Part shown: positions 27,065-27,240 of the stretch, one piece after another
Layout: every line of letters begins with the position of its first letter
How positions within the stretch are numbered: position 1 is the stretch's first letter
Assembly: GCF_900109545.1 (NCBI RefSeq)
Contig: NZ_FOAP01000014.1
Coordinates: forward strand, 124,001-188,000
DNA from: Stigmatella aurantiaca
GTDB lineage: Bacteria > Myxococcota > Myxococcia > Myxococcales > Myxococcaceae
Length of the DNA stretch: 64,000 nucleotides
Direction of reading: 5' to 3'
Notes under the pieces: generated by a model
Told to the model about the DNA's origin: nothing
The model's database searches: none
What the model saw: only the letters and a program-made list of their open reading frames with translations
Translations under genes and position numbers: made by a program

Positions 27065-27097
27065 GAGCCCACCGTCCCTCGCGGGGTGGGTGGGCTC
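27065..27097 (-). promoter_or_regulatory. Attenuator-like hairpin in the metY leader
   Basis: On the minus strand GAGCCCACC (27097-27089) pairs perfectly with GGTGGGCTC (27073-27065) across a 15-base loop. The 5' arm can instead pair over seven bases with GGTGGGC at 27156-27150 inside the leader-peptide reading frame, and that same segment forms its own hairpin, GGTGGGC-CTCG-GCCCGCC (27156-27139). Three mutually exclusive structures in one leader are what an attenuator needs. There is no long U tract right after the 3' arm, so the mechanism could be Rho-dependent or translational. Confidence 0.55.
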
Positions 27098-27129
27098 CGG
27101 TCACTTCGCCACAGGTCGACGGCAGACGG

Positions 27130-27201
27130 TCAACCGGCGGCGGGCCGAGGCCCACCACACGGCATGCACATTCGACAGCTGGCGAAGGCCACGGAGTTCA
27201 T
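27130..27201 (-). CDS. Cys/Met-rich leader peptide upstream of metY
   Basis: A 23-codon open frame begins with ATG 27201, about four bases after the start site expected from the promoter, so it would be translated from a leaderless mRNA. The peptide contains CRMCMPC at residues 9-15: three Cys and two Met in seven codons, both of them products of the pathway the operon serves. It ends in TGA 123 bases before metY. Directly after the last Cys codon come GGT GGG C, the bases that can pair with the downstream hairpin. Similar leaderless Cys-rich uORFs control sulfur genes in mycobacteria; the regulatory role here is inference. Confidence 0.6.
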   Translation of the reverse strand: MNSVAFASCRMCMPCGGPRPAAG

Positions 27202-27211
27202 TGCGGCCAGC

Positions 27212-27240
27212 AAGATGACGGCTGTCCGCGATATTGTCAA
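27212..27240 (-). promoter_or_regulatory. Sigma-70-like promoter of the metY-metX operon
   Basis: On the minus strand a perfect TTGACA (27240-27235) is followed after exactly 17 bases by CATCTT (27217-27212), a 3/6 match to TATAAT. Transcription would begin near 27205, immediately ahead of the leader-peptide ATG. TTGACA is rare in this GC-rich sequence, which raises confidence. Confidence 0.55.

Follow-up and report, generated by a model that had tools for sequence, protein, structure and literature searches.

The window, the 64,000-nucleotide stretch of Stigmatella aurantiaca DNA analysed here (contig NZ_FOAP01000014.1, positions 124,001 to 188,000), carries on its minus strand a metY gene followed, 40 bases on, by a metX-like gene. 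Upstream of this pair, at 27240-27065, lies an element that combines a TTGACA promoter, a near-leaderless open reading frame (ORF) and competing GC-rich stems. The features are as follows, all on the minus strand.

24424..25677, minus strand: metX-like homoserine acyltransferase gene (TIGR01392, 221 bits, E 1.8e-65, curated cut-off 500)
25718..27007, minus strand: metY, O-acetylhomoserine sulfhydrylase (TIGR01326, 658 bits against a cut-off of 495)
27245..27258, minus strand: operator-like palindrome TCCGTTTTGACGGA, immediately 5' of the -35 box, recognized from the sequence
27212..27240, minus strand: predicted promoter, -35 box TTGACA (27240-27235), 17-base spacer, -10 box CATCTT (27217-27212)
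27130..27201, minus strand: predicted leader ORF of 23 codons plus TGA, MNSVAFASCRMCMPCGGPRPAAG and stop, ATG at 27201
27163..27171, minus strand: putative control codons Met11 (27171-27169) and Met13 (27165-27163), assigned from Met conservation and the on/off boundary in masked folding
27172..27187, minus strand: segment 1, CTTCGCCA (27187-27180) with GTCGA (27176-27172), assigned by folding
27119-27115 and 27111-27104, minus strand: TCGAC and TGGCGAAG, which pair with segment 1 in the predicted anti-antiterminator H1, assigned by folding
27139..27156, minus strand: hairpin P1, segment 2 GGTGGGC (27156-27150) with its local partner GCCCGCC (27145-27139)
27114..27135, minus strand: hairpin P2, GGTTGAC/GTCGACC, containing the leader stop codon and forming the centre of the antiterminator rod
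27089..27156, minus strand: antiterminator rod, segment 2 GGTGGGC with segment 3 GCCCACC (27095-27089), P2 inside
27065..27097, minus strand: putative terminator hairpin with a T-poor tail, segment 3 GAGCCCACC (27097-27089) with segment 4 GGTGGGCTC (27073-27065)

The window MetX, a diverged one, scores under both curated cut-offs (221 vs 500 bits and 217 vs 331) despite adjoining metY.

Read along the minus strand, the element runs TTGACA, 17 bases, a weak CATCTT, ATG, and then GGTGGGC, GCCCGCC, GCCCACC and GGTGGGC. An earlier note, made from the sequence alone, had described the TTGACA box, the ATG, the 23-codon ORF, the GGTGGGC/GCCCGCC pair and a 9-base-pair hairpin, and all of these are where it had placed them. 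It had also called the promoter near ideal, which is true of the -35 box only; the -10 box, CATCTT, is poor and agrees at 3/6 positions. A strict consensus scan of window positions 26000-28500 found neither promoter nor terminator, so the consensus quality of the promoter had been overstated, while the arrangement itself is real. The pattern TTGACA-N16..18-NATNTTG-N9-ATG, which was composed after seeing the site, has one match in the window and none in 100 shuffles. If the promoter is assigned correctly, the leader ORF would be nearly leaderless.

To follow the element across the family, genomes, loci and genera were labelled G, L and g, respectively. Long MetY (E <= 1e-140) is present in 45/96 family genomes. 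The upstream regions of 44 of these were compared together, and the remaining one, that of G025, was viewed separately, with no leader of this type noticed there. A complete leader precedes metY in 31/44 regions. One more (L117, G080:C443) has an intact leader and lacks the segment 3/4 hairpin on its contig, which reflects either a natural loss of attenuation or an assembly gap. Two regions (L122, L132) are cut off at contig ends, five (L011-L014 and L139) have a second leader type, two (L009, L010) have a SAM-I-IV riboswitch, and no leader was seen in the last three (L015, L137, L138).

A search of the family with a pattern built from segments 2 and 3 and the local partner of segment 2 returned 58/96 genomes, against 0/96 in the reversed control; the matches in G086 and G020 were judged from sequence alone to be chance, leaving 56 genuine genomes. 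The search added 23 genomes of genus g23 that lack long MetY. In all 23 the leader sits upstream of metX, on the same strand, and the metX match begins 85-245 bases beyond segment 3. On the same basis as for G086 and G020, we set aside as chance the matches in G061:C270 and at additional sites in g43 and g23 genomes, together with the two further matches in the wider class of 147 genomes (G138 and G144, from another family). Three loci drawn from chance-match places (L185-L187) were left out of the analysis, and 80 distant MetY loci from a broader contig search were left out of all counts. No match to the leader peptide was found among plasmids by tblastn.

MetX (E <= 1e-60) occurs in 66/96 family genomes, and when upstream regions, pattern and MetX search are combined, 57 of these 66 carry the leader: 54 with fully analysed leaders, G070 and G076, where pattern and metY lie on different contigs, and G080 with the hairpin missing. 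The other MetX genomes have the second leader type (four: G012, G014, G026, G032), SAM-I-IV before metY (three: G006, G009, G018) or neither leader nor riboswitch (two: G031, G118). The 54 leaders comprise 31 matched by the hairpin pattern (31/32 with enough sequence) and the 23 of the metX type, whose search pattern dictates the outer stem but not the rod middle.

A palindrome TCCGYnnnnRCGGA stands at -57 or -73 relative to the leader ATG in 10/54 leaders (genera g1, g8 and g12), and sequences resembling it were seen by eye upstream of metY in L015, L017 and L020. It is read as accessory and probably a protein site, and its recurrence suggests a protein regulator common to the order.

The leader is a reading frame in all 54 cases, the window's included, as the earlier note had expected of relatives. 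Its start was taken as the earliest ATG at a distance of 33-46 bases downstream of TTGAC, and TTGAC lies 37-43 nt before that ATG in 54/54 (spacings 37, 38, 39 or 43). The ORF has 22-25 codons and begins 39, 42, 45 or 48 nt before GGTGGGC, every one a multiple of 3. In the 717 codons upstream of segment 2 there are 150 internal ATGs in the leader frame and none in either of the other two; because the leaders are related, these are not independent events. Two internal Met codons are found in 15 leaders, three in 37, four in one and five in one, and g23 leaders gain or lose Met by whole codons (AMRRMSM, AMMRRMSM, AMMMRRMSM). Met has a single codon, so synonymous change cannot separate codon function from RNA function.

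Cysteine follows a different course. It occurs somewhere in 47/54 leaders; upstream of segment 2 it is absent from nine, single in 23, double in 19 and triple in three. The Cys/Met cluster noticed in the window is thus conserved in its Met half, with 2-5 internal codons in 54/54, and not in its Cys half. Since Met codons are found in every leader and Cys is missing ahead of the switch in 9/54, the signal is Met and Cys is optional; on the same count Cys was rejected as the main signal. The codon directly before segment 2 is Pro in 31 leaders, Ser in 13, Thr in five, Cys in three, Arg in one and Gln in one.

Both the peptide and the stems are conserved in relatives. The P1 core GGGC/GCCC is invariant in 31/31 leaders around a variable tetraloop, and the H1 arm CGCCA has a TGGCG or TGGTG partner in 37/54. 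When a Met codon 12 or more bases ahead of segment 2 occupies the A site, the rod is the best fold in 26 of 27 distinct leaders; the exception, L008, forms the rod with earlier Met codons in the A site. The rod middle differs in sequence between genera, with pairing kept. RNAalifold on a MAFFT alignment found both-sided change in only 3/28 pairs, all three of them in P2; we think that the rod middle is misaligned between genera in that alignment, and for this reason a half-swap test was used, in which 3' rod halves were exchanged between leaders and the joint stability of natives and chimeras was compared. In a first set, natives were jointly better in 184/195 pairs (mean -8.2 kcal/mol), while shuffled controls gave an average of 0.49 and a maximum of 0.60, and ten 80-base stretches of metY coding sequence gave 68-132 of 195 (means +2.2 to -1.6). 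Among 39 unique rods compared across genera, natives were better in 499 and swaps in 18 of 518 pairs (mean -9.4 kcal/mol); the rod thus covaries, and compensatory change in the stems had been named as a check in the earlier note. Within genera, the corresponding counts are 137 and 19 of 174 in g23, 10 and 0 of 14 in g8, and 0 and 0 of 4 in g43. Single chimeras are less clear, as 105/390 are at least as stable as the native, and support for H1 is moderate and weaker than for the rod (natives better in 651, swaps in 323 of 979).

The behaviour of these stems under a translating ribosome was modelled by folding the first 31 leaders as far as segment 3 while a ribosome footprint was masked codon by codon, with three footprint sizes. 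For the window leader and the middle footprint, the probability of the antiterminator is 0.00 without a ribosome, 0.93-1.00 when the A site holds any codon from S3 to C12 (including Met11), and 0.00 from Met13 past the last Cys to the stop; with the other footprints, Met13 becomes 0.18 or C12 becomes 0.52. The last Cys codon, which had been offered as the landmark of the switch, is Cys in only 3/54 leaders, and in the window leader a stall there masks the antiterminator. In all 31 leaders and with all three footprints, there is an internal Met codon that, when in the A site, brings the antiterminator probability to 0.5 or more, and the mean for the best internal Met is 0.99-1.00. Depending on the footprint, this level is reached at 63-76 of 82 internal Met codons, and 14-27 of 31 leaders reach it with their last Met. 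Once the ribosome is at least two codons beyond the last Met, the mean falls to 0.06-0.12. Of the Cys codons, 46/49 also give at least 0.5. Upstream Cys codons thus lie mostly in the antiterminating zone, and a secondary Cys input may exist.

The off state is predicted less cleanly. The antiterminated form is predicted for 22/31 leaders without a ribosome and for 17-19 of 31 with the ribosome at the stop codon, which runs against a simple off state. When the full length is folded, most states have the terminator form as the more stable one, which would require a kinetic switch. Over the 54 leaders, the genus means of this energy gap are 3.5-11.0 kcal/mol without a ribosome and 5.1-15.5 at the stop, and 1.3-5.6 at each leader's best Met stall; in g23 the gap shrinks little, from 3.5 without a ribosome to 2.3 at the Met stall. 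The two competing stems described in the earlier note are both present, within a larger switch that also includes segment 1 and the long antiterminator rod.

The segment 3/4 hairpin is strong, at -22.2 to -25.8 kcal/mol in 54/54 leaders, and near-invariant in 31. The first 8 bases past its stem hold only 2-5 T in the 54 leaders, and with this weak tail and the negative strict scan, termination may need Rho or NusA. Elsewhere in the window, a hairpin of -27.7 kcal/mol at 52662 on the minus strand has 7 T among the 10 bases behind it, the top T count among 32 strong unbroken hairpins; that scan took unbroken stems only and hence excludes the segment 3/4 hairpin.

Leaders of the second type in L011-L014, for example VTLIRSRMPMSMEAMLMRGPGMRAFAGECCPSCCR and stop, begin shortly after a promoter-like sequence recognized by eye. 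Here Met codons lie within a hairpin GGCCATGC-NCAT-GCGTGGCC, with GGCCCGGGC as segment 2 and a GCCCGGG further downstream as segment 3. In masked folding of these four leaders, placing the EAM Met codon in the A site yields an antiterminator probability of 0.88-1.00; starting one codon after the next Met, the probability is down to 0-0.03, or 0-0.13 if the smaller footprint is used. At the Cys run that ends these leaders, the probability rises again to 0.59-0.90 in L011, where the ribosome-free and stop states are 0.00. The value of 0.95-0.97 in L013 says little, since its ribosome-free and stop states are also 0.97, and L012 and L014 reach at most 0.41; a dual reading of Met and Cys is therefore suggested cleanly in one of the four. 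A similar leader, MLSEAPPPWKCSMGMRRPGARVLVGRGLC and stop, precedes metY in L139 (G113:C77), a small genome with no MetX above threshold.

Across the phylum, the hairpin motif of the second type occurs in 11/195 genomes, namely those of L011-L014, G000 and all six of genus g8; the match in G000 (contig C3) was set aside as chance, as it lies inside a long frame. In the six g8 genomes (L203-L208), the leader stands upstream of an aspartokinase/homoserine dehydrogenase (AK-HSDH) gene followed by two metB/metC-like genes. The AK-HSDH product, scanned in one of the six, is above the cut-off of NF006959 (744.9 bits), and the metB-like and metC-like genes score under the curated cut-offs. These leaders start at GTG or TTG behind GGAG; they contain six internal Met codons, lack a Cys run and have no more than one Cys each. 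A ribosome with the EAM Met codon in its A site gives an antiterminator probability of 0.98-1.00 in 6/6, and without a ribosome the value is 0.02-0.73.

Taken in outline, the element very probably works as a ribosome-mediated transcription attenuator whose input is the availability of charged methionyl-tRNA, a reading based on sequence comparison and folding models. What the comparison supports is the leader frame with its Met codons, the rod, and the mutual exclusion of rod and terminator; we infer where transcription starts, that it terminates and that it responds to Met. The transcript would start a few bases ahead of the leader ATG. With Met ample, the ribosome would pass the Met codons onto segment 2 and block the antiterminator, and the segment 3/4 hairpin would halt RNA polymerase before metY. 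With Met short, the ribosome would wait with an internal Met codon in the A site, covering segment 1 and leaving segment 2 free; segment 2 would pair with segment 3 in the long rod that includes P2, the terminator would be prevented and metY-metX would be transcribed.

The earlier note had proposed attenuation by Cys and Met tRNA supply, and its general form, ribosome-mediated attenuation, is supported by the comparison, with Met as the conserved signal. That a shortage of Cys-tRNA stalls the ribosome, alone or jointly with Met, is a reading we find unlikely. It can draw on the 45/54 leaders with one to three Cys codons ahead of segment 2, on the position of nearly all tested Cys codons in the antiterminating zone and on the terminal Cys run of the second leader type; it fares badly with the nine leaders that lack upstream Cys, with the window's last Cys, rarely conserved and masking the rod when the ribosome stalls there, and with the Met-rich g8 leaders. 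We are also inclined to doubt, though less strongly, a ribosome-dependent control that acts through Rho or transcript stability, in which leader and rod are real and segment 4 is no classic terminator. The poor U-tract of 54/54 leaders speaks for it, as the hairpin at 52662 in the same window does have a T-rich tail, whereas the stability of the segment 3/4 hairpin in all 54 leaders and its near-invariance in 31 speak against it.

Two further readings were considered. A metabolite-binding RNA, in the form of a new riboswitch for SAM or Met whose ORF is incidental, would fit a highly conserved, structured element that is replaced by SAM-I-IV in relatives, but it would not lead one to expect ORF lengths that change in multiples of 3, internal ATGs confined to one frame, or a rod middle that varies between genera with pairing maintained. 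Nor was there any Rfam match at the gathering threshold in the window; among 20 loci searched, the two matches are SAM-I-IV in L009 and L010, with none in the leader-bearing L001-L008. We regard such a riboswitch as very improbable. Hardly any weight, and slightly less still, is given to an arrest peptide, in which the nascent chain binds Met or SAM and stalls the ribosome. Peptides of this kind are known in principle, TnaC and SpeFL being examples that stall the ribosome, but the C-terminal residues of the leaders vary (PRPA, LPPA, RQPA, LSPS, QPAS) and the switch boundary falls at Met codons.

As an attenuator that reads Met-tRNA, the element has familiar relatives. In the proteobacterial trp, his and leu attenuators, control codons lie in or beside segment 1 and segments 1-4 form alternative pairings, and the myxobacterial leader shares both properties. 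Unlike them, it uses Met codons, a near-leaderless start and a weak U-tract, and its segment 1 pairs with a stretch between segments 2 and 3. Bacterial methionine control is usually described in terms of SAM riboswitches, T-boxes or repressors. The SAM-I-IV riboswitch (RF01725), which binds SAM directly, takes the same site before metY in G006, G009 and G018 and before the AK-HSDH/metB/metC operon in L213-L215 (the three genomes examined, from g12, g17 and g23), where it lies 278-332 bases ahead of the first matched residue of the kinase; the riboswitch model gives no match to the myxobacterial leader. In L009 and L010, SAM-I-IV is followed, about 165-200 bases before metY, by tiny ORFs (MCRCYLP and MMCHPLN, each then stop), which possibly form a second, Cys-containing leader behind the riboswitch.

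No myxobacterial or met-biosynthesis leader-peptide attenuator appeared in titles or abstracts among the literature matches listed, which mostly did not cover subscription papers. The closest printed case that we found is the proposed metL leader of Streptomyces, described before metNIQ in one genome, that of Streptomyces lividans TK24, from RNA-seq, with Met-dependent attenuation proposed and, in the part of the paper available to us, no typical Rho-independent terminator found by its authors (PMC8079986). As described in that part, metL resembles the myxobacterial leader in being leaderless and Met-rich with interspersed Cys (its end reads RCMCRRMCAF); it controls Met import, while the leader described here, compared with it by description, precedes biosynthesis genes in 57 genomes and has segments 1-4 and covariation (PMC8079986). 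Leaderless polycysteine short ORFs are known from mycobacteria (Canestrari 2020, as cited in the portion of PMC9031893 available to us), and Cys leaders have been reported in Actinobacteria, where the accessible text describes no conserved RNA structure before methionine operons (PMC1262725). As far as these sources describe them, such leaders resemble ours in that a small ORF rich in codons for a sulfur amino acid precedes sulfur genes, the codons standing in a run, and the mycobacterial ones also in the leaderless start; they use Cys, not Met, and those of Mycobacterium are without a conserved terminator hairpin (PMC1262725, in the text available). The exchange of sensing systems at one gene has also been described, with no methionine leader in the accessible part of that account (PMC2965389).

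In the Myxococcaceae, SAM-I-IV and leaders occur in alternation both at metY and at AK-HSDH/metB/metC, that is, sensors exchange at two operons. We tentatively suggest that Met-tRNA attenuators and SAM riboswitches are interchangeable at both met operons and that the Met-run/Cys-run leader before metY may read both amino acids. In genomes without long MetY the leader precedes metX, and a Met-codon attenuator on biosynthesis genes, trading places with SAM-I-IV, would offer a natural experiment on why a cell should sense aminoacyl-tRNA rather than SAM.
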